DNA of 64,000 bases, from contig NZ_JACSYA010000022.1 in the NCBI RefSeq assembly GCF_029870285.1, positions 23,010-87,009 of the forward strand, given 5' to 3'. Within the stretch, counting starts at the first letter, position 1. The number at the start of each line of letters is the position of its first letter. This document shows, one piece after another, positions 971 to 52,944 of the stretch. The translations under genes were made by a program, and so were the position numbers. The stretch is from Delftia sp. PS-11 (GTDB lineage: Bacteria; Pseudomonadota; Gammaproteobacteria; Burkholderiales; Burkholderiaceae_C). The notes below the pieces were generated by a model. It was not told where the DNA came from. It saw only the letters and a list, made by a program, of their open reading frames with translations, and ran no database searches.

Positions 971-1812
971 GCGTGTTCTCCGGCATCTTGCAGCAGGCGG
1001 CGCGCGCGTTCTGCGATGGGGGCATCGACCATGCGGCCATCGACGGCCACGGCCCCCTGTCCCCGGGCGAGGGCGAGCCCGTAGGCCTGCACGATGCTGC
1101 GCGCCTGGTGCAGCTCTTGTGCGCTGGCGCCAAAGGCGGCATGCAGCGCGGGCAGCTGTGCCGGGTGGATGCATGCGGCACCGCGCATGCCCAGCGCGCG
1201 TGAGCGCCGGGCCAGTGCCGCGAAGTCCGCGAGGTCGGTGTAGTTGCCGATCGGGCCCGCCAGTCCCATGGGGTGCAGTCCTGCCGCCACAGCCGCAATG
1301 GCTACGGCCTGCGCGGGCAGTGCCAGCGTGTCCGGCATGGGCTCCATGCCCATCGCGGTGGCGAAGTCCTCGCCGCCGAAGGCCAGCGAGGCCAGCTGGG
1401 GCGAGGCCTGCGCGATTTCTGCGAGCCGCAGCAGCGCCCTGGGAGTCTCCACGATGGCGTGCAGCGGCATGTGGCCTGCGCCCAGGGCATCGGCCAGTGC
1501 TGCAATGCCCTGTATGTCGGCGGCCGATTCGGCCTTGGGGATGATCAGGCCGTCGCAGCCCGCGCGCAGCGCGGCCCCGGTGTCTGCCTGTCGCAGTGCC
1601 GGGTCGGCATTGATGCGCACGAGCACGGGGACCTGCCCACGCAGGCGGGCGATGGCCGCAGGCAGCATGGCGCGGGCCTGGGCCTTTTGTGCGGGAGCGA
1701 TGGCATCTTCGAGGTCGAGCACGATGGCGTCGGCGCCGCGCTGGCCGGCGCGCTCCAGCAGCCGCGTGGCGGTGGCAGGGATGTAGAGCAGGGATCGGGG
1801 ATGCAAGTTCAT
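967..1812 (-). CDS. CitE-like CoA-ester lyase (HpcH/HpaI superfamily)
   Basis: 281 residues forming one TIM-barrel domain of the citrate lyase beta/malyl-CoA lyase type. Visible hallmarks are RSLLYIPA at the N-terminus, DAIVLDLEDAI (metal and substrate loop), VLVRINA (conserved Arg), IVETPRALL (metal-ligand Glu) and FGGEDFATAMG. The length suits stand-alone CitE-like enzymes, which cleave acyl-CoA thioesters such as citramalyl-CoA or malyl-CoA into acetyl-CoA and an oxo acid. Its stop overlaps the CoA-transferase start (ATGA), and a LysR gene diverges 126 bases upstream. Citramalyl-CoA, malyl-CoA or a hydroxymethylglutaryl-CoA-like ester are all possible substrates. Confidence 0.9.
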   Translation of the reverse strand: MNLHPRSLLYIPATATRLLERAGQRGADAIVLDLEDAIAPAQKAQARAMLPAAIARLRGQVPVLVRINADPALRQADTGAALRAGCDGLIIPKAESAADIQGIAALADALGAGHMPLHAIVETPRALLRLAEIAQASPQLASLAFGGEDFATAMGMEPMPDTLALPAQAVAIAAVAAGLHPMGLAGPIGNYTDLADFAALARRSRALGMRGAACIHPAQLPALHAAFGASAQELHQARSIVQAYGLALARGQGAVAVDGRMVDAPIAERARRLLQDAGEHA

Positions 1813-1938
1813 GGGGCGGGCGCTGTGGCGCTGGCAGGGGCGGTCCGCACAATGTAGGCAGCCGCCCGCCCGCCGTGGCTGAGGAATTCAGAACCGGCCT
1901 TCTCGCAAACCGAACAGGCTCCAGCAGGGAGATACGCC

Positions 1939-2856
1939 ATGGAATTGCGCCAGCTCCGTTACCTCGTCGCCGTGATCGATGCCCAGAGCATCACGCGCGC
2001 CTGCGATGCGCTGCATGTGGTGCCCTCCGCCGTGAGCCACCAGCTCAGGCTGCTGGAGCAGGAGCTGGGCAGCACGCTGCTGGTGCGCGGGCCGCTGGGC
2101 ATGCAGCCCACGGCCACGGGCCGGCTGCTGTACGGCCAGGCCCAGGCCATCCTGCGCCAGGTGGCCGATGCCCGCGCCCAGGTGCAGGCGGGCGGGGCGC
2201 AGGTGGCGGGCGCCGTGTCCGTGGCGATTGCGGGCAGTATTGCCCGGGCGCTGTCCGTGCAGCTGCTGGCGGCCTGCCGCGAGCGCTGGCCGGCCATCGC
2301 GCTGTCCATCCACGAAGGGCTGAGCGGCCATCTGGTGGAAGGGGTGCACAGCGGCCGCTTCGATATGGGCGTGCTTTACGCCTCGCAGGCTACCGAGAAG
2401 CTGCAGACCCGGCAGGTCGTGCGCGAGCCGTTCTTTTTCGGCTGCATGCGGGCGCTGGCGCCAGAGGGCGGCCATGCGCCAATGCCCTTGCAGGAGCTGG
2501 CGCGCCAGCCGCTGCTGCTGCCCAGCCAGCCCAATGCCACGCGCGGCGCCCTGGACCGGGCCTTTGCGCCGCTGGACATCCGCTACCAGGTGGCGGGCGA
2601 GGTCAATTCCACGGCCACCCAGGTCGGCGCGGTGCTGGCGGGCCTGGGCGCCAGCGTGTTTCCCTGGGTCAGCCTGGAGCTGCTGCGGCCGCGCCGCGCC
2701 CTGGTGGTCCGGCCCCTGGATGCGCAGCGCATGTACCGCGATGTGGTCATGGCCACCCGGCCCCAGGGCCTGCGCAGCCGTGCCGCCGAGGCGGTGCAGG
2801 AGACCGCCGGGCAGTTGCTGGCCGCGCTTTACCGGCCGCTGCTGGCCGCAGCCTGA
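1939..2856 (+). CDS. LysR-family transcriptional regulator
   Basis: 305 residues. The N-terminal winged helix-turn-helix spans about residues 1-60 (MELRQLRYLVAVIDAQSITR, then a recognition helix in VVPSAVSHQLRLLEQELG). The remainder is the usual periplasmic-binding-protein-like effector domain. The ATG at 1939 follows CAGGGAGA. It is divergent from the CitE-like/CoA-transferase pair across 126 bases, the standard geometry for a LysR protein controlling its neighbour, so it is probably that operon's regulator (inference). Sequence style is Nac/Cbl-like. Its 3' end overlaps the convergent channel gene by 28 bases. Confidence 0.93.
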   Translation: MELRQLRYLVAVIDAQSITRACDALHVVPSAVSHQLRLLEQELGSTLLVRGPLGMQPTATGRLLYGQAQAILRQVADARAQVQAGGAQVAGAVSVAIAGSIARALSVQLLAACRERWPAIALSIHEGLSGHLVEGVHSGRFDMGVLYASQATEKLQTRQVVREPFFFGCMRALAPEGGHAPMPLQELARQPLLLPSQPNATRGALDRAFAPLDIRYQVAGEVNSTATQVGAVLAGLGASVFPWVSLELLRPRRALVVRPLDAQRMYRDVVMATRPQGLRSRAAEAVQETAGQLLAALYRPLLAAA

Positions 2857-39927: not shown

Positions 39928-40746
39928 TCAGGCTGTGGCCGCTGCCAGGGCCGTCATGGCGGTCGTGTCGGTAGCGGCAAGGGCCCGCACACCGCGCACC
40001 ACATCACCGACGACGATGACGCTGGGGCTGCCCAGCCCTGTCGTGGCCAGGCAGGCCGGCAGTTCACCCAGCGTGGTGATGGCATGGCGTTGGTGCGCCA
40101 GGCTGGCATGCTGGATGACGGCGACGGGCGTTTCACCGGGCAGGCCATGCATCAGCTCGGTGCTGATATGGTCCACGCTGCTGACGCCCATGTAGATCAC
40201 CAGGGTCAGCCGTGCATCGCGCGCCGTGGCTGCCAGCTGTCGCCAGTCTGTCCCCCGGTCGCCGGGTTTGGCATGGCCTGTGATGAAGACCACGCCATGC
40301 GCGTGATCACGGTGGGTGAGCGGCGCGCCCAGGCTGGTCAGGCCGGCCAGGCCTGCCGTGATTCCGTTGACGACCTGTACCTCGATGCCGGCTTCGCGCA
40401 GGTGCTCCACTTCCTCGCCGCCACGGCCGAAGATGAAGGGATCGCCCCCCTTGAGCCGCACCACGGTCTCGCCTTCCTGCACGGCGGACAGCATGAGTTT
40501 TTCGATGAAGGCCTGCGGCGTGCTCTTGCAGCCGCCGCGCTTGCCCACGTAGACGATGCGGGCCGTGGGCGAGGCGTGGGCGACGATGGCGTCGCTGACC
40601 AGGTCATCGACCAGCAGCACGGTGGCCGCCTCGATGGCCCTGAGCGCCTTGATGGTCAGCAGTTCCGGGTCGCCGGGGCCGGCGCCGACCAGGGTGCAGC
40701 TGCCGCGGCGTGCGGCATTCACGGGAGTGTGGGACGGGGTCGTCAT
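39928..40746 (-). CDS. cobA: uroporphyrinogen-III C-methyltransferase
   Basis: 272 residues, single-domain SUMT. It shows the family motifs TLVGAGPGDPELLTIKALRA, DDLVSDAI, YVGKRGGCKSTPQ, VRLKGGDPFIFGRGGEEVEH, NGITAGLAGL and LTHRDHAHGVVFITGH. It transfers two methyl groups from SAM to uroporphyrinogen III, giving precorrin-2 for sirohaem or cobalamin. As the last gene of the nitrate-assimilation operon, its likely job here is sirohaem supply for nitrite (and sulfite) reductase. It lacks the CysG dehydrogenase/chelatase half, so those steps must be encoded elsewhere. Confidence 0.96.
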   Translation of the reverse strand: MTTPSHTPVNAARRGSCTLVGAGPGDPELLTIKALRAIEAATVLLVDDLVSDAIVAHASPTARIVYVGKRGGCKSTPQAFIEKLMLSAVQEGETVVRLKGGDPFIFGRGGEEVEHLREAGIEVQVVNGITAGLAGLTSLGAPLTHRDHAHGVVFITGHAKPGDRGTDWRQLAATARDARLTLVIYMGVSSVDHISTELMHGLPGETPVAVIQHASLAHQRHAITTLGELPACLATTGLGSPSVIVVGDVVRGVRALAATDTTAMTALAAATA

Positions 40747-40771: not shown

Positions 40772-41680
40772 TCAGCGGATCTGGTCGGCAAGGTGCACGA
40801 TGTGCGCCACCTGGCGCATGAGGGCGGGCGGCACGGGAAGCCGGCCTGCGAGCACGGCCTCGGTGTAGCGCGCCGTGGTATCCACGTCGATGGCGATGGG
40901 CAGGCCGGGCACTTCGCTGGCTGTGCCGCTTTGCTGCTCGGCCAGCAGCTGGTGCGTGCCTGCGATGAAGCCGTCATAGCGTGGCAGCCGGCGCGGGTCG
41001 GCTGCCACCTCGCCTTCGAGTCCGCGCGAGAGCAGGGCGTTCATGCGCAGCGCCTCGAAGCTGCCATGCAGCATGGGCAGGTATTCAGGATGGGTGTATG
41101 CGCTCACCAGCAGATGGGGCCCGTCGCAGGGCGCCAGCAGCTTGACCACGCTGTGGCCGGGGTTGCGCAGTCCGATGACCTCGCGCACGGACAGCAGCCG
41201 GGCCAGCCCCGGATGCAGGAGCCTGGTGTGGATGTGCGCAACCTCGCCGCCTGCGAGCTGCCGGGGCGCCTGCAGCGGCGCGATGCCCAGGGCCTGCAGC
41301 ACGTCGCTGGCCAGGATGCGGCGCGCCTCGGTGCGCATGCCGTGCAGCAGCACGGGCAGGCCCTCGCGGGCCAGTAGCAGCGCCAGCAGGGGCGTGAGCA
41401 CGGGCAGCTTGCGCGCGCCGTTGTAGCTGGGCAGCACGACGACGGGGCGGTCCATCGAGGCCAGGCGTGCTGTGCGGGCCTGTATCGCATCGATGAAGCC
41501 GCACATCTCTTCGCTGGTTTCACCCTTGATGCGCATGGCGATGCAGAAGGCGCCGGTTTCGAGGTCGCTGACGCGGCCGTCCAGCACCTGGCCGAACAGG
41601 TCTGCTGCCTGTGCGCGGTCCAGTGCCTTGGCGCCGCGTGCGCCGCGGCCTATTTCCTTGATGTAGTGGCTGATGCCCAT
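40772..41680 (-). CDS. ybiB: YbiB/TrpD2-family protein
   Basis: 302 residues, TrpD-like fold. MGISHYIKEIGRGARGAKAL, LFGQVLDGRVSDLETGAFCI and AMRIKGETSEEMCGFIDAIQ form the N-terminal helical domain. VVVLPSYNGARKLPVLTPLL, where a phosphoribosyl-transferase would bind PRPP, lacks the canonical GTGGD motif, and that absence defines TrpD2/YbiB proteins. E. coli YbiB binds nucleic acid non-specifically and is not a PRPP transferase. It lies between nasA and cobA in the nas operon. Why it is there is not obvious. Confidence 0.9.
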   Translation of the reverse strand: MGISHYIKEIGRGARGAKALDRAQAADLFGQVLDGRVSDLETGAFCIAMRIKGETSEEMCGFIDAIQARTARLASMDRPVVVLPSYNGARKLPVLTPLLALLLAREGLPVLLHGMRTEARRILASDVLQALGIAPLQAPRQLAGGEVAHIHTRLLHPGLARLLSVREVIGLRNPGHSVVKLLAPCDGPHLLVSAYTHPEYLPMLHGSFEALRMNALLSRGLEGEVAADPRRLPRYDGFIAGTHQLLAEQQSGTASEVPGLPIAIDVDTTARYTEAVLAGRLPVPPALMRQVAHIVHLADQIR

Positions 41681-41764: not shown

Positions 41765-44608
41765 TCATTCAGTGGCCATGTCTGCCGTCGCCGGTATCTG
41801 GCGCACGAGCTGCTTGAGCTCGGGCAGGCACGAGCCGCAGCGGGTGCCGCAGTGCAGCCTGGCCTGCAGCGCACCCAGGCGCTGCGCATCGCCACCTTCG
41901 CCGTGGGCGCTGCAGGGCAGCGTGGCGAGCACGCTCCGGATGGCGTCCTCGTCCACATTCAGGCAGGCGCAGACCTGGCGTGCGCGCGGCTTGAGCGCCA
42001 GCGGGGCCGTGCCGCCTGGCTGCAGTAGCAACAGCCCGAAGTCCTGGGCCGGCAACTGGTCGCGCAGCAGCGTGGCGAGCCAGCTTTCAGCACGTGTGTC
42101 ACCGGCCAGCATCAGGGCCTGCACCCGCGTCACGGTGGGGCTGCGCTCCAGCCGCAGCGCCCGGCTGTGCTGGCGGCTGCTGTCGCTATAGCGCAGCGTG
42201 TCGGCGCTGTCCAGGCCCAGCAGCGAGGCGATGCGCTGCAGCAGCTGCGCATCCGGCGCCTCTGTGGCGGCGGCGCGCAGCAGCACGCCGTGGCGTGCCT
42301 GCTGTGCGGCCAGCTCCAGGGGAACGGCATTGCCGAAAGGCACGCAGCTGGCGAAGGCGAACCCGGGCATGAGCGCGGCCAGCGTCTGGCGGGTGGCCAG
42401 GACCTGGTCTTCGGGCAGCCAGGCCATGGCCAGCAGGGTCCAGGGCAGCTCTGCCTTGATCACCTGCACGGCAGTGTGCTTGAGTTCGGGCTGCTTGGAG
42501 CTGGGGCAAAAAGCGGGCGTGGTCAGCGTGTTCACGCCGGCGCCGCCGCCCAGGTATTCCCCGCCCCAGTGCATGGCCAGGAAGGCCTGGGCCGGTGCCA
42601 GGCCGGCATCGGCCTGCACGGGCACGACAAGTGCGCCGCGCCGGCTGCTGACCTGCACCAGGTCGCCATCGCGCAGCTGGCGCTGCTGCATGTCGCCGGC
42701 ATGCATCTGCAGGCAGGGCTCGGCGGCGTGGCCGAACAGGCGCCCGAGCTGGCCGGTGCGGCTCATGCCATGCCACTGGTCGCGCAGCCGGCCCGTGGTC
42801 AGTGCCAGCGGATAGCGGTCATCGGCTGGCTCCGCCAGGGGCTGCCAGGGCAGGGTGCAAAAGCGCGCGCGGCCATCGGGGGTGGGAAAGCGCCCGTCCT
42901 CGTAAAGCCGGGCGCGGCCCGTGTCCGCGCCCTGCGGGAAGGGCCACTGCTGGGGGCCGCGCTCTTCGAGCAGCGCCCATGACAGTCCGGTGATGTCCAG
43001 ATCGCGGCCGCGCGTGCTCTCGCGGTGCTCGTTCCAGATGGCTTCGGCCCCCGCCGCCGCATTGCCGGTGTCGTAGGCAAACAGGCTGGGCAGGCCCGGG
43101 CGCAGCCTGCGCTCCAGGCGCCGCGCGCACTGGACGGCGATTTGCCAGTCGTGGCGCGCGGCGCCCGTCGCCGGCACGGCGGGGCGCACGCGGGAGATGC
43201 GCCGTTCACTGTTGGTGACGGTGCCGATTTTCTCGCCCCAGGTGGTGGCCGGCAGCAGCAGGTCGGCATAGGCGCAGGTGGCTGTGGTGGCGAAGGCCTC
43301 CTGCACGATGACGAATTCGGCGCGCTGCAGCGCGCGCCGCACCAGTGCCTGGTCGGGCATGCTTTGCGCGGGATTGGTGCAGGCGATCCACAGCGCGCGG
43401 ATTTCGCCTTCGGCGGCAGCCTCGAACATCTCGACGGCGGTCTTGCCAGGCCGTGCCGGCACATCGGGCACGCCCCACAGCGCAGCCACCTCGGCGCGGT
43501 GCGCAGGGTTGGCGAGATCGCGGTGGGCCGACAGCAGGTTGGCCAGCCCGCCAACCTCACGCCCGCCCATGGCATTGGGCTGGCCCGTGAGTGAGAAGGG
43601 GCCCGCACCCGCCCGGCCGATCTGGCCCGTGGCCAGGTGCAGGTTGACCAGGGCTGCGTTTTTGGCCGTGCCATTGCTGCTCTGGTTCAGCCCCTGGCAG
43701 TACAGGCTCAGCGTGGCGCCCCGTTGCACCGCATTGCCGCCCTGCGCCATCCAGCGCGCAGCCAGGAACAAATCGCCTGGCGGCAGGCCGCAGGCCTCGG
43801 ACACGCGCTCCGGCGTGGCGCCGTGCACCAGGGCTTCGAGTTCGGCAAAGCCGCTGGTGTGGCGGGCGATGTAGCCGGCATCGGTCCAGCCTTCGCGCAG
43901 CATGATGTGCAGCAGTCCGTGAAACAGCAGCGTGTCGCTGCCGGGGCGCAGCGGCAGATGCAGGTCGGCCAGGGCGGCTGTGTCCGTGCGGCGCGGATCG
44001 GCCACGATGATCTTCATGCCAGGGCGTGCCGCGCGCGCCTGCTCCAGCCGCCGCAGCAGCACGGGATGGGCCCAGGCCATGTTGCTGCCGGCAATGAACA
44101 GGCAGTCCGCATGGTCCAGGTCTTCGTAGCAGGCGGGCGGGGCGTCTGCACCCAGGGTGAGCTTGTAGCCGGCCACGGCGCTGCTCATGCACAGGCGCGA
44201 GTTGGTGTCGATGTTGTTGGTGCCGATCAGGCCCTTGGCCAGCTTGTTGAAGACGTAGTAGTCCTCGGTCAGCAACTGGCCGCTGACGTAAAAGCCCACG
44301 GCGTCCGGGCCATGGCGCTGCACGATGTCTGCCAGGCGCGTGGCGGCCATGTCCAGCGCTGCGTCCCAGCCCAGAGGCTGCGGCTCGGCGCCGCGCCCGG
44401 CACGCAGCGCAGGCTGCAGCAGCCGTGTCTGGCGGGCAAGCGCGGGGGCGGCCGTCAGGTGCAGGGTACTGCCTTTGGTGCACAGCCGGCCGAAGTTGGC
44501 CGGGTGGGCGGGGTCGCCGCGCACGCCCGTGATGCCTTGGCCATCGCTTTCGATGATGACGCCGCAGCCTACGCCGCAGTAGGGACAGGTGGACTTGGTT
44601 TCTTGCAT
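41765..44608 (-). CDS. nasA: assimilatory nitrate reductase catalytic subunit, BFD-fused
   Basis: 947 residues. The N-terminal 4Fe-4S site is C8-x2-C11-x3-C15-x27-C43. The Mo-bisMGD region includes NSRLCMSSAVAGYKLTLGAD with the expected Mo-ligand Cys. Molybdopterin dinucleotide-binding domains occupy the middle, and the last 150 residues hold a BFD-like [2Fe-2S] domain (VCACLNVDED and HCGTRCGSCLPELK). The length exceeds the 866 of Klebsiella NasA because of that domain. It reduces nitrate to nitrite in the cytoplasm. It follows the FAD subunit gene by 34 bases in the same operon. Confidence 0.97.
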   Translation of the reverse strand: MQETKSTCPYCGVGCGVIIESDGQGITGVRGDPAHPANFGRLCTKGSTLHLTAAPALARQTRLLQPALRAGRGAEPQPLGWDAALDMAATRLADIVQRHGPDAVGFYVSGQLLTEDYYVFNKLAKGLIGTNNIDTNSRLCMSSAVAGYKLTLGADAPPACYEDLDHADCLFIAGSNMAWAHPVLLRRLEQARAARPGMKIIVADPRRTDTAALADLHLPLRPGSDTLLFHGLLHIMLREGWTDAGYIARHTSGFAELEALVHGATPERVSEACGLPPGDLFLAARWMAQGGNAVQRGATLSLYCQGLNQSSNGTAKNAALVNLHLATGQIGRAGAGPFSLTGQPNAMGGREVGGLANLLSAHRDLANPAHRAEVAALWGVPDVPARPGKTAVEMFEAAAEGEIRALWIACTNPAQSMPDQALVRRALQRAEFVIVQEAFATTATCAYADLLLPATTWGEKIGTVTNSERRISRVRPAVPATGAARHDWQIAVQCARRLERRLRPGLPSLFAYDTGNAAAGAEAIWNEHRESTRGRDLDITGLSWALLEERGPQQWPFPQGADTGRARLYEDGRFPTPDGRARFCTLPWQPLAEPADDRYPLALTTGRLRDQWHGMSRTGQLGRLFGHAAEPCLQMHAGDMQQRQLRDGDLVQVSSRRGALVVPVQADAGLAPAQAFLAMHWGGEYLGGGAGVNTLTTPAFCPSSKQPELKHTAVQVIKAELPWTLLAMAWLPEDQVLATRQTLAALMPGFAFASCVPFGNAVPLELAAQQARHGVLLRAAATEAPDAQLLQRIASLLGLDSADTLRYSDSSRQHSRALRLERSPTVTRVQALMLAGDTRAESWLATLLRDQLPAQDFGLLLLQPGGTAPLALKPRARQVCACLNVDEDAIRSVLATLPCSAHGEGGDAQRLGALQARLHCGTRCGSCLPELKQLVRQIPATADMATE

Positions 44609-44642: not shown

Positions 44643-45875
44643 TCAGCGTGCCGCCTGGTCGGGGCCGAACATCAGGGCATCCCGGATGGCGGCGATGTCG
44701 CGGCCCGAGCGCAGCAGCTCGAAATACCAGGCACTGTCGCCGGTGTCGCCGTACAGGCAGGCGCCGACGAGCCGGTCTGCGCGCAGCACCAGCTTCTTGT
44801 AGATGCCGCCTGCAGGGTCGCTGAGCACGATTTCCTCCGTGCCGGCGCCTCCCCGGAAGTCGCCGGCGCTGAACAGGTGAATGCCCGTGACCTTGAGCTT
44901 GGCCGAAACCTGCGATCCCGGATAGCGGCCGATGCCGATCCCGGCCAGATGGTTGGCCAGCACCCGGCCCTGTTCAAACAGCGGCGCCACCAGGCCGTAG
45001 GCAATGCCGCGATGGGCTGCGCATTCCCCTACGGCATAAATGCGCGGGTCGGTGACCGTCTGCAGCGTATCGCTGACCACAATGCCACGGTCCACATGCA
45101 GGTGCATCTGCTCGGCCAGGGCGGTGTCTGGACGGATGCCCACGGCCATGACCACGAGTTCGGCGTCTGCCTGCCGGCCGTCTTGCAGGTGGACCGAAGC
45201 CACCCGGCCCTGGCCATCGCCCATCAGGGCCTTGGTCTGTGCCTTCATCAGAAAGCGCATGCCCTGCCCGGCCAGCGTCTGCTGCAGCATGGCGGCTGCC
45301 GTATCGTCGAGCTGGCGGTCCAGCAGCCGCTCTCCGGCATGGACCACGGTGACCTGCATCCCCCGCTTCATCAGGCCATTGGCTGCCTCCAGCCCCAGCA
45401 GGCCGCCGCCGATGACCACGGCATGGCGGTAACTGGCGGCCGCATCGATCATGGCCTGCGTATCGGCGATGTCGCGGTAACCCAGCACGCCTTCGAGCTC
45501 GCGCCCCGGCACGGGCAGCATGAAGGGCCGCGAGCCGGTGGCCAGCACCAGCCGGTCGTAGCCTGCGCTCACGGGCTGCCCCTGTGCATCTGTGGCATGA
45601 ACGACCCGGCGCGCGCGGTCCACCCCGTGCACGCGGCAGCCCGCATGCAGCCGTATGCCGTGCCGGGTGTACCAGGCCCAGTCGTTGAGGATGATGTCTT
45701 CGAGCTGCTGCTCTCCAGCCAGCACCGGCGACAGCAGGATGCGGTTGTAGTTAGGGTGCGGCTCTGCGCCGAACACGGTGATGTCGTAGCGCTCGGGCGC
45801 GATCGCCAGCAGTTCCTCCAGCATGCGCACGCCGGCCATGCCGTTGCCCACCACCACCAGCCTTGGCTTGTCCAT
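44643..45875 (-). CDS. NirB N-terminal-like FAD oxidoreductase, nitrate reductase electron-transfer subunit
   Basis: 410 residues from the ATG at 45875 (GGAGG eight bases upstream). FAD motif VVVGNGMAGVRMLEELLAIA, then EPHPNYNRILLSPVLAGEQ (as in NirB/NasB), the NAD motif AVVIGGGLLGLEAANGLMKR and YAVGECAAHRGIAYGLVAPL. The protein resembles only the FAD/NAD half of NirB and has no sirohaem-binding C-terminus, so it is not nitrite reductase. It probably passes electrons from NAD(P)H to NasA, as NasB/NasC-type subunits do. It is the first gene of the nas operon, downstream of the attenuator. Confidence 0.93.
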   Translation of the reverse strand: MDKPRLVVVGNGMAGVRMLEELLAIAPERYDITVFGAEPHPNYNRILLSPVLAGEQQLEDIILNDWAWYTRHGIRLHAGCRVHGVDRARRVVHATDAQGQPVSAGYDRLVLATGSRPFMLPVPGRELEGVLGYRDIADTQAMIDAAASYRHAVVIGGGLLGLEAANGLMKRGMQVTVVHAGERLLDRQLDDTAAAMLQQTLAGQGMRFLMKAQTKALMGDGQGRVASVHLQDGRQADAELVVMAVGIRPDTALAEQMHLHVDRGIVVSDTLQTVTDPRIYAVGECAAHRGIAYGLVAPLFEQGRVLANHLAGIGIGRYPGSQVSAKLKVTGIHLFSAGDFRGGAGTEEIVLSDPAGGIYKKLVLRADRLVGACLYGDTGDSAWYFELLRSGRDIAAIRDALMFGPDQAAR

Positions 45876-45898: not shown

Positions 45899-45957
45899 AA
45901 AAAAAGGCGTCCACACCCTGGGCCCCGGGTTGCGAGACCGCCAGTGTGGACGCCTTT
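45899..45957 (-). terminator. nas leader attenuator (intrinsic terminator)
   Basis: On the minus strand a perfect 14-base stem (AAAGGCGTCCACAC against GTGTGGACGCCTTT) is followed by an uninterrupted run of seven T (45899-45905). It lies 24 bases before the first nas start codon and downstream of the promoter, so it would block the operon unless overridden. A leader terminator of this sort is the target of NasR antitermination in Klebsiella nasF. Confidence 0.92.
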
Positions 45958-45964
45958 GTCCGTG

Positions 45965-46013
45965 CTCTCCAGGTGCGCCGTTGCACGCAGAGTGCCTGGC
46001 CCGTGCTGGGCCA
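45965..46013 (-). promoter_or_regulatory. nas leader hairpins, ANTAR-type recognition element
   Basis: On the minus strand two hairpins lie between the sigma-54 promoter and the terminator. The first (45997-46013) has a TGGCCC/GGGCCA stem. The second (45965-45992) has a GTGC/GCAC stem with a hexaloop AACGGC, extended by CTCT/AGAG. ANTAR proteins bind paired hairpins with a hexanucleotide loop having A at 1 and G at 4; the second loop fits and the first does not clearly do so. Confidence 0.65.
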
Positions 46014-46026
46014 TCAACAATTCATA

Positions 46027-46042
46027 AGCAATATGCATGCCA
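46027..46042 (-). promoter_or_regulatory. sigma-54 promoter of the nas operon
   Basis: TGGCATGCATATTGCT on the minus strand matches the consensus TGGCACG-N4-TTGCW with one change and the exact GG-N10-GC spacing. Transcription should start about 12 bases further on, leaving a leader of roughly 140 bases before the FAD subunit gene. Confidence 0.8.
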
Positions 46043-46050
46043 GATTTTTG

Positions 46051-46065
46051 GCACCTGTTCGGTGC
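46051..46065. promoter_or_regulatory. NtrC-type binding site, nas promoter
   Basis: GCACC-TGTTC-GGTGC is a perfect dyad of the GCACC-N5-GGTGC type seen in the E. coli glnA NtrC site. It lies only about 10 bases upstream of the -24 element, closer than most enhancers, so a second site or a different geometry may be involved. Confidence 0.75.
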
Positions 46066-46430
46066 ATTTCTGGGGGCATCGGAGTGCTGGTTGCCGTGCT
46101 CCCGCAGCGTCTTGCACAGCAGCGGGGCGTGTTGTCCACGCACGCGCAGATGTGCAAAAAATCCAACATGTCTCAAGGATTTTGCTGATGGTGATCAATT
46201 TGCTCAGGTTTTTTAAGTCCTTGCCCTTATCAAATAAAATGATAAAAATAATAAAAATGGAAAAAAGGAAGTGTGCAAACTCAAGGCATGCGTACGCTTC
46301 TACGGCCCATTTGGTTTTTTGTCATCCCACAAATAGCGCTTGCTGCCTGCATCACTCTGTCTGTAAGCTCATTGCAACGCGTAGGTACTGCTGGGATGTT
46401 GGTCAACGGCATTTTTCGAGGAGATAGCCG

Positions 46431-48098
46431 ATGAGAGTGAATCTGCCTGTCAGCACGCATGAGTACGCTTTTCCCAAAGGGCAGACGCTGGTGTCCACCA
46501 CCGATCTCAAGGGGCGCATCCTTTACTGCAACCCGATGTTCATCGAGGTCAGCGGCTATGCACGCGATGAGTTGCTGGGCCAGCCGCACAGCATGATCCG
46601 CCACCCCGACATGCCGGAGGAGGCCTTCCGCGACATGTGGGAGACCATCGCCAGCGGTCTGCCCTGGTCGGCGCCCGTCAAGAACCGGCGCAAGAACGGC
46701 GATTTCTACTGGGTCATGGCCAATGTGACGCCGCTGATGGACGGTGACCAGCCCACGGGCTACATGTCGGTGCGTACCGAGGCCACGCGCGAGCAGATCC
46801 AGGCCGCAGAGAGTCTTTACCAGACCATGCGTGCCGAGAAGGACGCCGGCAGGAAAATCCATGTGCTGCACCGCGGACACCTGCTGCGCAACAACCTGCG
46901 CGGCCGTCTGGGCCGTGCGCTGAGCCTGGGCCTGGCTGGCAAGCTGGGGCTGGTGTTTTCACTGGTGATGGCTGCTGCCTTCGGGGCGGCCACCGCAGGC
47001 GGGCAGACCCTGGGCCTGTGGTCCGGACTGGCCTGGCTGGCCGCCTGCGCGGTCATGGTTCTGGCCGTCTCCTGGGCCTACCGGCTCACCGTGGCGCCGC
47101 TGGGCCAGATGGTGCGCCTGGCCAACCGCATGGCTGCCGGAGACCTCACGCAGACCATCCGCAATACGCGCAATGATGTGGTGGGTGATCTGGAGAAGGC
47201 GCTGGCACAGCTCAATGTCAACCTGCTGTCCATCGTGCGCGATGCGCGTGAGGAAAGCGAAAAGATGAGGGTTTCCGCCCGCGAGATTGCCGCCGGCAAC
47301 CAGGACCTGTCCTCGCGCACGGAAAGCCAGGCCAGCAATCTGCAGCAGACGGCTGCCTCGATGGAGGAGATCACGGGCACGGTCAAGCTGACAGCGGATG
47401 CCGCGCGCCAGGCCAGCGATCTGGCGACCCGCGCCACCGATGTGGCCGAGCGCAGCAGCGGCGCGGTCGATGGCGTGGCCGACACCATGCGGCAAATCCA
47501 GGCCGCCTCGGGGCGCATCGGCGAGATCACCCAGCTGATCGATTCCATCGCCTTCCAGACGAACATCCTGGCGCTGAACGCGGCCGTGGAGGCGGCCCGG
47601 GCGGGCGAGCAGGGCCGGGGCTTTGCCGTGGTGGCCACCGAGGTGCGCAGCCTTTCGCACCGCACGCTGGCGGCTGCCAAGGAGATCCGCCAGCTCATCG
47701 ATGACTCTGCTGCCAAGGTACTCGATGGCAACCAGCGCACGGGGCTGGCGCAAAAGACCATGGCCGAGTCACTGGATCTGGTGCGGCGCGTGAACCTGCT
47801 GATTGGCGAGATCAACAGCGCTTCCGGCGAGCAGCTCAGCGGCATCTCCCAGGTCAACTCTGCTGTCTCGCATCTGGACAGCATCACGCAGCAGAATGCT
47901 GCCCTGGTCGAGCAAAATGCGGCTTCCGCCATGTCTTTGCAGCTTCAGGCGCAGACGGTGGCCGAAACCGTGCAGGTTTTCCGCCTGTCGGGCCAGCCCC
48001 AGGGCGAGGCGGCCGATGCGGTGGCGCTGCGCCGCGCCATGAAGACCCAGAGGTCCGCCTTGCCGGGCCAGACACCGCCTGCGCTGCGCGCAGCCTGA
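46431..48098 (+). CDS. PAS-containing methyl-accepting chemotaxis protein (Aer-like)
   Basis: 555 residues from the ATG at 46431. An N-terminal PAS domain (about 20-120, LYCNPMFIEVSGYARDELLG and GDFYWVMANVTPLMDGD) replaces a periplasmic sensor. Two hydrophobic segments near residues 165-205 (LGLVFSLVMAAAFGAATA and LAWLAACAVMVLAVSWA) precede a HAMP region and a long methyl-accepting coiled coil. The signalling tip DSIAFQTNILALNAAVEAAR and the sequence AGEQGRGFAVVATEVRSL are intact. It is architecturally like Aer, a redox or energy taxis receptor with FAD in the PAS domain. It is divergent from the nas operon. Confidence 0.95.
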   Translation: MRVNLPVSTHEYAFPKGQTLVSTTDLKGRILYCNPMFIEVSGYARDELLGQPHSMIRHPDMPEEAFRDMWETIASGLPWSAPVKNRRKNGDFYWVMANVTPLMDGDQPTGYMSVRTEATREQIQAAESLYQTMRAEKDAGRKIHVLHRGHLLRNNLRGRLGRALSLGLAGKLGLVFSLVMAAAFGAATAGGQTLGLWSGLAWLAACAVMVLAVSWAYRLTVAPLGQMVRLANRMAAGDLTQTIRNTRNDVVGDLEKALAQLNVNLLSIVRDAREESEKMRVSAREIAAGNQDLSSRTESQASNLQQTAASMEEITGTVKLTADAARQASDLATRATDVAERSSGAVDGVADTMRQIQAASGRIGEITQLIDSIAFQTNILALNAAVEAARAGEQGRGFAVVATEVRSLSHRTLAAAKEIRQLIDDSAAKVLDGNQRTGLAQKTMAESLDLVRRVNLLIGEINSASGEQLSGISQVNSAVSHLDSITQQNAALVEQNAASAMSLQLQAQTVAETVQVFRLSGQPQGEAADAVALRRAMKTQRSALPGQTPPALRAA

Positions 48099-48156: not shown

Positions 48157-48963
48157 TCAGGCGGCTTTTTCCACGTGCGCCTGGCGCGTGTAGAGGAAGT
48201 CGATGACGGCCTTGCGGCACTGCAGGTAGCGCGGGTCCTCGGCCAGGGCCACGCGGCTGCGCGGGCGGGCGATGCCGACTTCCAGCACCTCCCCGATGGT
48301 GGCGGCCGGGCCGTTGGTCATCATCACGATCTTGTCGGACAGCAGCACGGCTTCATCCACATCATGGGTGACCATGACCACAGTGCTTTGCGTGCGCGCC
48401 ACGATCTCCAGCAGCTCGTCCTGCAGCTTGGCGCGCGTGAGCGCATCCAGCGCGCCGAAGGGCTCATCCATCAGCAGCACCTGGGGCTCCATGGACAGGG
48501 CACGGGCAATGCCCACGCGCTGCTTCATGCCACCCGAAATTTCGCCGGGGCGCTTGTGCGCGGCATGCGCCAGGCCCACCAGCTGCAGCGCAGCCATGGT
48601 GCGCTCCTTGAGCTGGGCGCGGCTTTCTGTGCGGCCGAAGACGCGCTCCACCGCCAGGTGGATATTGCCTTCGCAGGTCAGCCAGGGCAGCAGCGAGTGG
48701 TTCTGGAACACCACGGCGCGCTCGGGTCCCGGGCCCTTGATCTCCTTGTTGCCGCACAGCAGCACACCGGCCGTGGGCGTGGTCAGCCCCGCGATCAGGT
48801 TCAGCAGCGTGGACTTGCCGCAGCCCGAGTGGCCGATCAGGGCCACGAACTCGCCCTTGGCAATCGTCAGGTGGATGTCGCGCAGCGCAAGGAATACGCC
48901 CTTGGCGGTCTTGAAGCTTTGCTCCACGGACTGGATTTCGATGAATTTTGCCGATGCGCTCAT
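48157..48963 (-). CDS. nitrate ABC transporter ATP-binding protein
   Basis: 268 residues from the ATG at 48963, overlapping the permease stop (ATGA). Walker A is GHSGCGKSTLL, the signature ISGGMKQRVGIARAL and Walker B VLLMDEPFGALD, followed by the H-loop VTHDVDEAVLLSD. It belongs to the NrtD/SsuB/TauB group of ABC ATPases and lacks the extra NrtC-type substrate-binding tail of cyanobacteria. It powers uptake of nitrate at the inner membrane. It is the last gene in the nrtA-permease-ATPase operon. Confidence 0.95.
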   Translation of the reverse strand: MSASAKFIEIQSVEQSFKTAKGVFLALRDIHLTIAKGEFVALIGHSGCGKSTLLNLIAGLTTPTAGVLLCGNKEIKGPGPERAVVFQNHSLLPWLTCEGNIHLAVERVFGRTESRAQLKERTMAALQLVGLAHAAHKRPGEISGGMKQRVGIARALSMEPQVLLMDEPFGALDALTRAKLQDELLEIVARTQSTVVMVTHDVDEAVLLSDKIVMMTNGPAATIGEVLEVGIARPRSRVALAEDPRYLQCRKAVIDFLYTRQAHVEKAA

Positions 48964-49913
48964 GATTTCACCTCTTCGAAAGTAAAGGCCGTTGCCAGCT
49001 TGACCAGCGCCATCTCCAGCAGCAGGCCCACGATGCCGATCACGAAGATGGCAATGATGATGTTCTTGACGTTGAGGTTGTTCCACTCATCCCAGACCCA
49101 GAAGCCGATGCCCACGCCGCCCGTCAGCATCTCTGCCGCGACGATGACCAGCCAGGCCGTTCCCACGGCCAGACGCACGCCCGTCAGCATGTAGGGCAGC
49201 ACGGAGGGGAACAGGATGGTGGTGGCGATCTTCCACTCGCTGAGGTTGAGCACGCGCGCCACGTTCATGTAGTCCTGGGGCACGCGCTGCACGCCCACGG
49301 CGGTGTTGATGATCATGGGCCAGATGGAGCAGATGAAAATGGTCCAGATGGCCGCCGGGTTGGCGCCTTTGAACACCAGCAGGCCAATGGGCAGCCAGGC
49401 CAGGGGCGAGACCGGGCGCAGCAGGCTGATGAGCGGGTTGAACATGCGCGACAGAAAGGTGAAGCGGCCGATCACAAAGCCTGCCGGGATGCCCACCACA
49501 GCCGCAAGGCCGAAGCCCACGGCCACACGCTGCAGCGAGGCCAGCACATTCCAGCCCACGCCCTGGTCGTTGGGGCCGTTGCTATAGAAGGGGTCGCTGA
49601 AGACCTCCAGCGCCTGCAGCCAGGTTTCGTGGGGGCCGGGGATGCTCTGGCCCGAGCCGGCTGCAACCAGGGACCACAGTCCCACAAGCAGGCCCAGGCC
49701 GCACAGCGGCGGCAGCACGGCCAGCCAGAAGGCGCGCGATAGCGCATGCCAGTCGCGCGCTGGGGCAGAGGGGGGCTGGGGCTTGGCGGATGCGGCTGGC
49801 ATGGCGGATGTGGCTGGCATGGCGGATGTGGCTGGGGCTGCGCTGGGCGTTTGCGTGCTGGTGGCCACCTGTTCGGCGGGCTCTGTGGAGAAGTGGAAGA
49901 CGGCGCTGACCAT
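48960..49913 (-). CDS. nrtB: nitrate ABC transporter permease
   Basis: 317 residues from the ATG at 49913. After a roughly 50-residue soluble tail rich in Ala, Pro and Ser there are six membrane helices (FWLAVLPPLCGLGLLVGLWS is the first) and the ABC-permease EAA region near DYMNVARVLNLSEWKIATTI. It forms the inner-membrane channel for nitrate brought by NrtA and is 26 bases downstream of nrtA. The N-terminal tail is partly encoded by a tandem 18-base repeat and is longer than in typical NrtB proteins. Confidence 0.95.
   Translation of the reverse strand: MVSAVFHFSTEPAEQVATSTQTPSAAPATSAMPATSAMPAASAKPQPPSAPARDWHALSRAFWLAVLPPLCGLGLLVGLWSLVAAGSGQSIPGPHETWLQALEVFSDPFYSNGPNDQGVGWNVLASLQRVAVGFGLAAVVGIPAGFVIGRFTFLSRMFNPLISLLRPVSPLAWLPIGLLVFKGANPAAIWTIFICSIWPMIINTAVGVQRVPQDYMNVARVLNLSEWKIATTILFPSVLPYMLTGVRLAVGTAWLVIVAAEMLTGGVGIGFWVWDEWNNLNVKNIIIAIFVIGIVGLLLEMALVKLATAFTFEEVKS
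49783..49836. repeat. three tandem 18-base units inside nrtB
   Basis: Three copies of a unit reading ATGGCGGATGTGGCTGGC (with single-base differences) lie head to tail. On the coding strand they encode the repeated peptide ATSAMP in the soluble N-terminal tail of the permease, so unit number can vary without breaking the frame. Confidence 0.9.
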
Positions 49914-49939
49914 GGTGGGTTCCTCTATGGAGTGGGGCG

Positions 49940-51229
49940 TCATGCCTTGATGGAGAAGCTGTCGGCGTACTTGCGCGGGTCCTTGCCATCCCAGACCGTG
50001 CCGTCCATGAGCTTGCTGCTGCGCATCTCTGCCTTTGGCAGCGGCGCCTTGGCGACGGCCGCAGCCTGCTGGTAGATATCGGTGCGGTTGACCGCCCTGG
50101 CCACGGCCAGGTAGTCGGGATGCTCCTTGAGCAGGCCCCAGCGCTTGTGCTGGGTCAGAAACCACATGCCATCGGACAGATAGGGAAAGCCCACGCTGCC
50201 GTCGCCGTAGAACTTCATGTGGTCGGGGTCGTCCCAGGTCTTGCCCATGCCGTCCTGGTAGCGGCCCAGGATGCGCTGGTTGATGGCGTCCACGCCGGTA
50301 TTGACATAGGCCTTGCCCGCGATGGTGTCGGCCATGCGGCTCTTGTTGGCCAGGCTTTCGTCGATCCAGCGGCCGGCCTCGATGATGGCTGCCGTCACGG
50401 CACGCGCCGTGTGGGGGTTCTGGCGCGCGAAGTCCGACGTGGTGCCCAGCACCTTCTCGGGGTGGTCTTTCCAGATCGCTTGCGACGTCGTGGCGGTCAC
50501 ACCGATGCCATCCATGATGGCGCGGTGGTTCCATGGCTCACCCACGCAAAAACCGTCCATGTTGCCCACGCGCATGTTGGCGACCATCTGCGGCGGCGGC
50601 ACGGTGATGACCTTGGCATCCTTGAGCGGATGGATGCCGTGGGCCGCCATCCAGTAGTACAGCCACATGGCGTGCGTGCCGGTGGGGAAGGTCTGGGCAA
50701 AGGTGTATTCGCGCTTGTCACTGGCCATCAGCTTGGCCAGCCCTGCACCGTTGACCGCACCCTTGTCGGCCAGCTTCTTGGACAGCGTGATGGCCTGGCC
50801 GTTGTGGTTGAGCGTCATGAGCACGGCCATGTCTTTCTTGGGTCCGCCCAGGCCCAGGTGCAGGCCATAAACCAGGCCGTAGAGCACATGGGCAAAGTCC
50901 AGCTCGCCGTTGACCAGCTTGTCGCGCACGCCGGCCCAGCTGGCCTCCTTGGACAGCACGAACTTGACGCCGTGCTTGACGTCCAGCCCCAGCACCGACG
51001 CCATGACGACACTGGCGCAGTCGGTCAGCGGAATGAAGCCGATGCGCACCTCTTTCTTTTCGGGGGCGTCCGAGCCCGCAGCCCAGGCGCCGTGGTGGCC
51101 CAGGCTGGTGTACAGCGCTGCGCCACCAGCGAGTGCACCGGCCTGGCGCAGGAAGCCGCGCCGGGGCAGTGCCGGGGCTGCGGGCGTGGTGCGGCCAGTG
51201 TCTTCGGGGGACGGGTGTGAATGCGCCAT
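49940..51229 (-). CDS. nrtA: nitrate-binding protein of ABC transporter, Tat-exported
   Basis: 429 residues from the ATG at 51229 (AAGGAG upstream). The N-terminus PRRGFLRQAGALAGGAALYT is a Tat signal. The mature protein starts near EVRIGFIPLTDCASVVMASV and has the NrtA/CmpA landmarks LVNGELDFAHVLYGLVYGLH, FPTGTHAMWLYYWMAAHGIH and GFCVGEPWNHRAIMDGIGV. It binds nitrate (and possibly nitrite) in the periplasm and delivers it to NrtB. It is the first gene of the transporter operon and sits behind its own leader attenuator. Confidence 0.96.
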   Translation of the reverse strand: MAHSHPSPEDTGRTTPAAPALPRRGFLRQAGALAGGAALYTSLGHHGAWAAGSDAPEKKEVRIGFIPLTDCASVVMASVLGLDVKHGVKFVLSKEASWAGVRDKLVNGELDFAHVLYGLVYGLHLGLGGPKKDMAVLMTLNHNGQAITLSKKLADKGAVNGAGLAKLMASDKREYTFAQTFPTGTHAMWLYYWMAAHGIHPLKDAKVITVPPPQMVANMRVGNMDGFCVGEPWNHRAIMDGIGVTATTSQAIWKDHPEKVLGTTSDFARQNPHTARAVTAAIIEAGRWIDESLANKSRMADTIAGKAYVNTGVDAINQRILGRYQDGMGKTWDDPDHMKFYGDGSVGFPYLSDGMWFLTQHKRWGLLKEHPDYLAVARAVNRTDIYQQAAAVAKAPLPKAEMRSSKLMDGTVWDGKDPRKYADSFSIKA

Positions 51230-51283
51230 GGTCGGACTCCTTCGATCGTGAGAGTGGAATGCGGTCAAGCCGGGGCTCCATGC

Positions 51284-51333
51284 AAAACGGCGTCTTTTCC
51301 TGCCCGCACGCAGCGGGGGAAAGAGACGCCGTT
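51284..51333 (-). terminator. nrt leader attenuator (intrinsic terminator-like hairpin)
   Basis: On the minus strand AACGGCGTCT pairs perfectly with AGACGCCGTT, extended by TTTCC/GGAAA after one bulged base and capped by CCCGC/GCGGG, giving a hairpin of about 20 pairs. Only four T follow, so termination is plausible but weaker than at the nas attenuator. It lies 55 bases before the nrtA start. Confidence 0.75.
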
Positions 51334-51360
51334 GTCATGTGGCCCTTGGCAGAGCCGGGT

Positions 51361-51380
51361 CCCGACCGCCTTTGGCCGGG
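51361..51380 (-). promoter_or_regulatory. nrt leader hairpin, ANTAR-type recognition element
   Basis: On the minus strand CCCGGCC pairs with GGTCGGG (seven pairs, one G-T) around the hexaloop AAAGGC, which has A at position 1 and G at 4 as expected for ANTAR-bound RNA. The loop differs from the nas leader loop AACGGC at one base. A second hairpin (51343-51359, CCCGGC/GCC..GGG) follows before the attenuator. Confidence 0.75.
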
Positions 51381-51537: not shown

Positions 51538-52797
51538 TCAGCCTGCAGGCGGCAGCAGATCCGCCATGGCCAGCACGGCCTCGGCCACATCGATCAGGCG
51601 CCGGTTCTGGTTCATGGCGGTCTGGCGCAGCAGCTTGTGGGCCTCGCCCTCGCCGAGCTGCCGCCGGGCCATGAGCAGGCCCTTGGCGCGCTCGACCGTC
51701 TTGCGCTCGCCGAGTGCGGCGCGCACGGTCTCCAGCTCTGCCTGCATGGCCAGCAGGCGCTGCGACTGGTCCTGCACCAGCTCGATCACCGAGCGGTCCA
51801 GCTGCGGGCCCAGCCGGGCGGAATGTGCTTGTCCATCCCCATCGGCCAGGAAGCCGCTGGCCTGAGGCATTGCAGCCTGCGATGGCTCGGCCTGCAGCGC
51901 CTGCAGCGCGGCACGGGCCTCGGTGATGCGGCGCGCGCATTGCTGCTGCAGCTCAGTGGCCAGCAAGGCCTCGATGGCCTGCATGGCGTCCATGCGCAGT
52001 GTGTAGCTGTCGAACCACGGCATGGCCATGTCGCCATCCAGGGGCATGCCCGGCGCTGCCGTGCAGCCCACGCGGCGCAGGCGTTCGATCACGGCCACGG
52101 TGGCATCGGCTGCACAGGCTTCGCGCCACAGCGCCAGCGGCAGCGGCGGTGAAAACTCGGCAAAGACCTGCAGGCACCGTTCCTGCGAGGCGATCAGGTG
52201 CAGCCAGTGCTGCTGGCGCTGCGCATCGCTGATGCCTGCGCCAAAGGCTGCAACGCCCGTTGCGCGCTCCTGGCCTGCGAACTCCTTGCCCTGCATGAAG
52301 TTGAACATCGCCACCAGCAGCCGTGAGATGCCGGGGTCGGGCGCGCTGTCGGCGGCTTCAAAAACCACGGCCAGCAGCCCGGCCACCAGTTGGATGAAGG
52401 CGGCCGTAGCCGCTTCGGGCGACAGGTCGCGGGCATCGATGCGCGCGCGCAGCGCGGGCAGGGCGTCCAGCTCCTGCAGCACGTAGGCAATGCGGCTGAA
52501 CAGCCTGGCGCCATGGCCCCAGTGACCGGCGGTGGTGTCCATCCCGAAAAAACTCTCGCGCACGGCTTCGGCAATGGCATCACATTCAGCCATCTGTGCC
52601 TGCCGGGCATCTCCATGCCGGGCATCGCCATGCCCGCCGGCGTTGTAAAGGAAAACGTTGGAAAGTCCTCGCTCTTTCTGCAGCGCGTGAATGAACTGGC
52701 TCAGCCGCTCCACCAGAGCGCTGGTGCGCTGCAACTGTTCCAGCTCGGCGATTTCGCATTGGCGTGCTGCCACGAGGAAATGGAGTGCGGATTTCAT
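51538..52797 (-). CDS. nasR: NIT-ANTAR nitrate-responsive antitermination regulator
   Basis: 419 residues from the ATG at 52797. The NIT sensor domain (about 20-300) is shown by LVERLSQFIHALQKERGLSN, the signature region that binds nitrate/nitrite in Klebsiella NasR. The C-terminal ANTAR RNA-binding domain (about 360-415) contains RKTVERAKGLLMARRQLGEG and EAHKLLRQTAMNQNRRLIDV. In Klebsiella, NasR prevents termination in the nasF leader when nitrate is present. Here it is encoded next to two operons, both with leader attenuators, so it most likely controls both. Confidence 0.94.
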   Translation of the reverse strand: MKSALHFLVAARQCEIAELEQLQRTSALVERLSQFIHALQKERGLSNVFLYNAGGHGDARHGDARQAQMAECDAIAEAVRESFFGMDTTAGHWGHGARLFSRIAYVLQELDALPALRARIDARDLSPEAATAAFIQLVAGLLAVVFEAADSAPDPGISRLLVAMFNFMQGKEFAGQERATGVAAFGAGISDAQRQQHWLHLIASQERCLQVFAEFSPPLPLALWREACAADATVAVIERLRRVGCTAAPGMPLDGDMAMPWFDSYTLRMDAMQAIEALLATELQQQCARRITEARAALQALQAEPSQAAMPQASGFLADGDGQAHSARLGPQLDRSVIELVQDQSQRLLAMQAELETVRAALGERKTVERAKGLLMARRQLGEGEAHKLLRQTAMNQNRRLIDVAEAVLAMADLLPPAG

Positions 52798-52944
52798 GGG
52801 ATGGTGCCTGTATAAGCTTGTTTGCTGCAATTCTCATGCCTGTGCGGCAGGGTTGTCCCCGGTGGCGCAGACATTGCATTCGGGCGCGCAGCCCGCGACA
52901 CTGGCATGTGTGCGCAGCTTGCGCGGACTTTCAAGGAGGATCCC

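Follow-up and report, generated by a model that had tools for sequence, protein, structure and literature searches.

Initiation at Klebsiella oxytoca nasF is under Ntr/sigma54 control. The ligand of NasR, as described in published accounts, consists of two hairpins with a closing C:G pair and a hexaloop carrying A1 and G4, the second hairpin overlapping the terminator (PMC7496416, PMC3369931, PMC3369936). These accounts, together with one further report, already describe this ligand for NasR and EutV and its exclusion of the terminator (PMC7496416, PMC3369931, PMC3369936, PMC8934654). Targets of ANTAR proteins ahead of genes for nitrate transporters and nitrite reductases were reported by Ramesh et al. 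for a variety of bacteria. Since ligand, exclusion and nitrate-gene targets have thus been published, the leader found in the 64-kb stretch of DNA analyzed here (the window) belongs to a known kind. Like nasF/NasR of K. oxytoca, the window contains a NIT-ANTAR regulator, a two-hairpin motif with the C:G, A1 and G4 features, an overlap with the terminator and nitrate assimilation genes behind it (PMC7496416, PMC3369936). Unlike nasF, its transport and reductase genes are predicted to form two separately attenuated units, an extra stem lies ahead of P1, and the first gene encodes a NirB-N-terminal-like oxidoreductase, with full NirB on another contig.

The eut leaders of Enterococcus share with the window a two-hairpin ANTAR ligand that is exclusive with a terminator, as well as the placing of several leaders under a single ANTAR protein (PMC3369931); EutV is a two-component REC-ANTAR protein, whereas the regulator of the window is of the NIT-ANTAR type. 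The inter-hairpin length of the eut leaders is described as strict, a 20-nt extension abolishing activity (PMC8934654), in contrast to the two leaders of the window, whose loop-start spacings are 25 (nas) and 40 (nrtA). In the NasS-NasT systems of Paracoccus and Bradyrhizobium, the ANTAR-type NasT likewise controls nitrate-related genes, and antitermination was reported (PMC5424462, PMC6759348, PMC3795266); these systems differ from the window in having a sensor, NasS, and a separate NasT.

The genes of the locus are arranged as follows.

39928..40746, minus strand: uroporphyrinogen-III C-methyltransferase (siroheme supply)
40772..41680, minus strand: YbiB-type protein
41765..44608, minus strand: molybdopterin oxidoreductase with a C-terminal BFD-like [2Fe-2S] domain, NCBIfam hits all below cut-off
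44643..45875, minus strand: first gene, NirB-N-terminal-like FAD/NAD oxidoreductase of 410 aa, below the NirB cut-off
46431-48098, plus strand: PAS-type methyl-accepting chemotaxis receptor, divergent, separating the nas unit from the transporter genes
48157..49086, minus strand: nitrate ABC transporter ATP-binding protein, over cut-off
48960..49937, minus strand: nitrate ABC transporter permease, over cut-off
49940..51268, minus strand: substrate-binding protein of the NMT1_2 family, probable ATG at 51229
51538..52797, minus strand: nasR-type gene (NIT and ANTAR), probable ATG at 52797

The molybdopterin enzyme scored 498 bits for formate dehydrogenase alpha, 462 for NasA and 453 for NasC, and from its gene context we read it as a NasA-like nitrate reductase; the NMT1_2 protein is read as NrtA from the neighboring genes. 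The gene for a complete nitrite reductase of the NirB type lies on another contig. NtrC is also encoded in the genome, scoring 660.7 bits over the frame against a cut-off of 558.6, and a single RpoN gene was found. For the first nas protein, the best-ranked named locus belongs to Delftia tsuruhatensis (84%).

We consider it very probable that transcription at this locus starts from a sigma54-dependent nas promoter activated by NtrC and then meets an attenuator under the control of NasR, a reading carried by the sequence elements, their conservation and covariation, mutually exclusive folds and co-occurrence with NasR. The elements upstream of the first gene are the following.

46065-46051, minus strand: NtrC-like dyad GCACC-GAACA-GGTGC (GCACCGAACAGGTGC) with perfect arms, upstream of the nas promoter
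46042-46027, minus strand: sigma54 promoter TGGCATG-CATA-TTGCT (TGGCATGCATATTGCT), predicted start at about 46016
45997..46013, minus strand: hairpin A, TGGCCC-AGCAC-GGGCCA, near the predicted 5′ end, its loop departing from the ANTAR rule
45964..45995, minus strand: hairpin B, the P1 element of the ANTAR motif, with hexaloop AACGGC (45982-45977) closed by C:G
45961-45948, minus strand: hairpin C (P2 of the ANTAR motif, predicted antiterminator), GGAC-AAAGGC-GTCC, overlapping the terminator
45957-45899, minus strand: intrinsic terminator with 5′ arm AAAGGCGTCCACAC, 3′ arm GTGTGGACGCCTTT and T7, supported by sequence, fold and covariation

Every element that an earlier note on this DNA had listed was present: the perfect GCACC-N5-GGTGC dyad, the TGGCATG-N4-TTGCT promoter, two hairpins, one of them with the hexaloop AACGGC, and a terminator with seven T, which ends 23 bases before the ATG at 45875. 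That list had missed hairpin C and the second unit at 51501-51284, and of its two hairpins B is one of the two predicted NasR hairpins, C being the second, whereas the other (46013-45997) fails the ANTAR loop rule. Hairpins B and C stand in tandem, both with A1 and G4 in the hexaloop (AACGGC and AAAGGC) and with a C:G pair closing the loop. Folding of the leader, a check that the note had proposed, gave −64.3 kcal/mol for 46018-45898 (121 nt) compared to −47.5 (sd 3.5) for shuffled sequences (z −4.8; 0 of 200 as low). When the RNA was folded stepwise, hairpins A, B and C were present at seven of eight lengths between 70 and 105 nt, the pattern being absent at 85, and from 110 nt onward the terminator took the place of hairpin C. 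The two structures overlap (45961-45948 and from 45957) and are mutually exclusive by computed folding.

From these elements we infer NasR and NtrC binding, start sites and a response to nitrogen and nitrate. When nitrogen is short, phosphorylated NtrC would let the sigma54 polymerase initiate at about 46016, and the nascent nas RNA would fold hairpins A and B and then C. Without nitrate, the terminator, whose 5′ arm holds the loop and the 3′ strand of C, would displace C, and the polymerase would stop near 45899. In the presence of nitrate or nitrite, the NIT-ANTAR protein NasR would bind B and C at their C:G-closed AnnGnn loops and hold C in place; the terminator could then not form, and the genes from 45875 leftward would be transcribed. 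Transcription would thus be confined to nitrogen limitation with nitrate present, and the second unit, before nrtA, should be subject to this NasR as well.

Motif counts gave little support to this reading. TGGCATGCATATTGCT fits GG-N10-GC, and no other site in the window matches TGGCAYG-N4-TTGCW exactly; with one mismatch allowed, 3 sites were found where 3.2 were expected, so that the motif alone proves little. A simple terminator scan, which scores short stems only, found 1 terminator where 1.5 were expected and was not above chance, and no Rfam family matched at its gathering score anywhere in the 64 kb. Since shuffled sequences contain one-mismatch sigma54 sites and simple terminators just as often, the leader could be taken for a chance assembly of independent motifs in a G+C-rich intergenic region. 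We regard this as extremely unlikely in view of the related loci: order and spacing are kept in 32 leaders, the leader recurs across the genus, and the helices covary. It is this conservation, not the motif counts, that decides that the nas leader exceeds chance.

The comparison set comprised 80 related loci and the window, giving 81 upstream regions, of which 50 carried a sigma54 site (GG-N10-GC) at 10 or more of 12 positions; the site was similarly placed before the leaders of relatives, and in L048 it appears to lie in coding sequence. The hairpin C pattern was found in 34 of these 50 regions. L042 and L060, which have no terminator, were excluded, and hairpins B and C with a T-run terminator were present in the remaining 32 leaders. 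Alignment A1 and the model R1 were built from 30 of them, leaving out L007 (near-duplicate) and L026 (insert). For helix B and the terminator, the 30 aligned leaders showed 68 double-change cells compared to 21.5 in shuffled and 7 to 24 in slid alignments, the shuffles ignoring kinship. This covariation is the stronger evidence. Hairpin C was nearly invariant (3 of 4 pairs constant in the 30 aligned leaders), a constancy that is not independent since the hairpin C pattern had been used in picking the leaders. Hairpin B, initially sought with its loop letters in view, was chosen anew by stem alone, as the best hexaloop stem upstream of C, and it had A1 and G4 in 29 of the 32 leaders (all but L010, L014 and L026) and C:G closure in 30. 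Pairing in at least 22 of the 32 was seen at 10 of its 12 stem positions; the second pair was G-G in 10 leaders. The spacing from B to C was 20 to 32, with one leader at 67.

The computed stability of the terminator is far above that of hairpin C, so that it needs no factor to form. The leader might hence be a factor-independent attenuator or a plain terminator that merely lowers basal expression, with NasR acting on nrtA alone; we think this very unlikely, as the loop rule and C:G closure of hairpin B persist in 29 to 30 of the 32 leaders while the stem changes, and as the leader tracks NasR across the same-genus genomes.

A search with R1 matched 31 of 53 same-genus genomes at an E value of 0.05 or better, and across the class it matched 46 of 369 genomes, the own genome being included in both counts; as R1 was built in part from the window and same-genus leaders, these match by construction, and many of the same-genus loci are close relatives, so the counts do not represent independent events. 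With a leader this widespread, its occurrence in a betaproteobacterium, which the earlier note had singled out, is unsurprising. A NasR relative (E below 1e-60) was present in 28 of the 53 genomes. The leader was matched in 26 of these 28 and in 5 of the 25 genomes without such a relative (Fisher p 4.5e-8, not corrected for kinship). Four of the five, G003, G010, G027 and G038, contain a weaker ANTAR match; the fifth, G032, is 59% complete and had a weak leader match and no ANTAR match. The two NasR-bearing genomes in which no leader match was found were G034, whose intact NasR is not beside nrtA, and G035, whose nasR carries a stop. Together with the conserved promoter and leader, this co-occurrence with a NIT-ANTAR protein favors the stacked control of the Klebsiella nasF kind that had been proposed.

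In the genome studied here, the ANTAR domain of NasR is the sole ANTAR match, and nasR lies 5.5 kb from the nas leader; the distance was about 3.6 to 3.7 kb in genomes such as G019, G030, G036 and G043 and 6.7 to 6.9 kb in G001, G002, G051 and G052. At L028 and L030, a NasR-like frame appears divergent from the nas unit, in a gene order unlike that of the window. L110 of genome G010 encodes, at 1495-2289 (minus strand), a REC-like ANTAR protein, of the NasT type by eye, that adjoins an nrtA leader of the same kind, which suggests from the sequence that the leader RNA was retained while the sensor was exchanged. Upstream of nasR we found a further promoter-like element.

52826..52841, minus strand: sigma54-like site AGGCATGAGAATTGCA before nasR, conserved in relatives

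Such a site, at 10 or more of 12 positions, preceded nasR in 25 of the 26 located loci (of 27), compared to 1% in mononucleotide shuffles; L099 scored 9, and L087, outside the 26, scored 10 in a separate scan. With nasR behind a sigma54-like site, nitrogen shortage would raise the sensor and its targets alike, constituting a coherent feed-forward AND gate.

By its elements, a second full attenuator unit precedes nrtA (51501-51284).

51501-51487, minus strand: NtrC-like dyad GCACC-GGCAT-GGTGC, centered at about −109
51411-51396, minus strand: nrtA sigma54 promoter TGGCACGCTCTGTGCT, motif match
51361..51380, minus strand: P1 of the nrtA leader, hexaloop hairpin CCCGGCC-AAAGGC-GGTCGGG
51325..51336, minus strand: P2 of the nrtA leader, GAC-AACGGC-GTC, overlapping the terminator
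51284..51333, minus strand: nrtA leader terminator, from sequence and fold

The dyad starts 90 nt before the TGG of the promoter, the leader folds with a z of −4.9, and a further stem-loop lies between P1 and P2. R1 matched this leader weakly, with 26.0 bits compared to 27.4 for the reverse strand of the nas terminator, and not within an E value of 0.05 genome-wide, so that the case for the nrtA unit rests on its elements. A script scan for a sigma54 site combined with hexaloop hairpins closed by C:G and an overlapping terminator was positive in 26 of 28 NasR loci, including the window; the exceptions were L103, where the neighbor is not nrtA, and L109.

The NtrC enhancer consensus is TGCACY-N5-RGTGCA, and NtrC enhancers usually lie upstream of about −80. 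The dyad before the nas promoter fits this consensus at 11 of 12 positions; its 17-mer begins at 46066, 24 nt upstream of the promoter TGG, which places its center at about −42 from the predicted start. GCACC-N5-GGTGC-type dyads occurred 3 times in the 64 kb compared to 0.50 expected (2 of 100 shuffles attained 3), and GCACY-N5-RGTGC was found in 70 copies genome-wide compared to 30 for the reversed control. The dyad read earlier as an NtrC site is present, but its role in control appears weaker than claimed, as it lies just upstream of the −24 element, an unusual position for an enhancer and well inside −80. One other candidate was seen.

46113..46129, minus strand: weak NtrC-like dyad CGCCCCGCTGCTGTGCA, 9/12, near −105

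This site may be a chance match, and a scan of 400 bases revealed no second site better than 9/12. Of 15 other dyads inspected in the genome, the ones followed by a sigma54-like site begin 68 to 219 nt ahead of that site.

A survey of upstream regions (60 of 78 kept, after short ones and those more than 70% identical were dropped) yielded 52 NtrC-like dyads at 10 or more of 12 positions compared to 1.8 in mononucleotide shuffles. They clustered at promoter offsets of 24 (8 dyads), 56 to 59 (9) and 66 to 68 (5), the remainder being scattered; some distal dyads at offsets of 162 to 212 fall in coding sequence, at the end of the transporter gene as recognized by eye. The offset-24 dyad was thus present at that threshold in 8 of the 60 distinct regions, the window included, and in 11 at 9/12. 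Six of the eight (L015, L026, L028, L030, L043 and L068) have a second 10/12 site at an offset of 127 to 163, which in L028 and L030 sits within the divergent NasR-like frame; in the other two, the window and L016, no second 10/12 dyad was found.

Since the nas dyad abuts the −24 element, a simple enhancer role is uncertain, and it may be a proximal or damping site. NtrC governor sites lie close to E. coli glnAp2. The attenuator could accordingly be NasR controlled and the promoter sigma54 dependent, with the abutting dyad acting as a governor-like damper at high NtrC-P or belonging to another regulator and with activation coming from sites further upstream. The proximal center, compared to about −109 for the nrtA dyad of the same genome, the 9/12 dyad near −105 and the second sites of the six relatives speak for this arrangement, which is possible, though we lean against it: the offset of 24 is kept to the base in the eight regions and is separated by about three helical turns from the 56 to 59 cluster, as if it were part of the usual set, and the window has no second site above 9/12 in the bases scanned.

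The pair of hairpins listed in the earlier note, A and B, was considered as the NasR ligand of the window and was rejected, the loop of A (AGCAC or CAGCACG) lacking the A1 and G4 that B and C possess. A hairpin A with the ANTAR signature (C:G closure and an AnnGnn hexaloop) was found in 16 of the 32 related leaders and in 23 of 41 distinct leaders, after same-genus leaders had been added and near-duplicates removed, compared to 2% in shuffled sequences. In the related leaders, 24 to 30 nt separate its loop from that of B, and the predicted transcript start is a few bases at most from the beginning of its stem. In a mostly Acidovorax group, as in the window, the stem has been kept with a loop that departs from the rule; among the 41 leaders, no hairpin A was found in L028, L030 and L164.

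We scanned 29 loci of the class search, out of matches in 46 genomes; 6 gave no B and C, and 23 showed both. These distant leaders had a third hexaloop hairpin in 6 of 23 cases, which weakens the idea that a three-hairpin array is exclusive to the family of the window. A sigma54 site at 10 or more of 12 positions lay within 140 nt in 13 of the 23; of the 17 with B and C alone, 7 had a site at 9/12 or better 35 to 42 nt before the B loop.

As a tentative and rather unlikely proposal, the nas leader of many Comamonadaceae would be a three-hairpin ANTAR array, A-B-C in steps of about 25 nt, with A at the predicted 5′ end, where a second NasR dimer could be loaded or one passed on to the antiterminator. 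On this view, the window would represent the array after loss of the A loop, and together with a promoter-locked NtrC site and a sigma54-driven nasR, this would amount to a regulatory variant distinct from Klebsiella nasF. In the open-licence literature searched, we found neither three-hairpin ANTAR leaders nor a report of the nas leader in Comamonadaceae. Three predicted features may be new: the three-hairpin array in the family of the window, the NtrC dyad locked to the promoter and a nasR driven by sigma54.

The nas/nrtA locus would constitute a compact, sequence-complete example of an AND gate, with nitrogen state read at initiation and nitrate at elongation, and it places two leaders of different hairpin spacing under one predicted NasR. 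As leaders in nature carry three ANTAR hairpins, two, or a third one in decay, it can be tested directly how many hairpins an ANTAR dimer needs and at what spacing.

Other arrangements were seen among the related loci. In L024, L029, L032, L034, L042, L060 and L072, mostly from Hydrogenophaga, the region before the first gene contains a sigma54 site and hairpins with hexaloop-like loops; no terminator was seen there, and these loci possibly use another mode of ANTAR control. Neither hairpin C nor a terminator was found in the sigma54-bearing regions of L011, L012, L013, L023, L025, L047, L050 and L053, some of which retain a single GGCC hairpin. In the window, a putative FNR-like box (TTGATCACCATCAG, 46185-46198, minus strand) lies between the chemotaxis-receptor gene and the nas leader.
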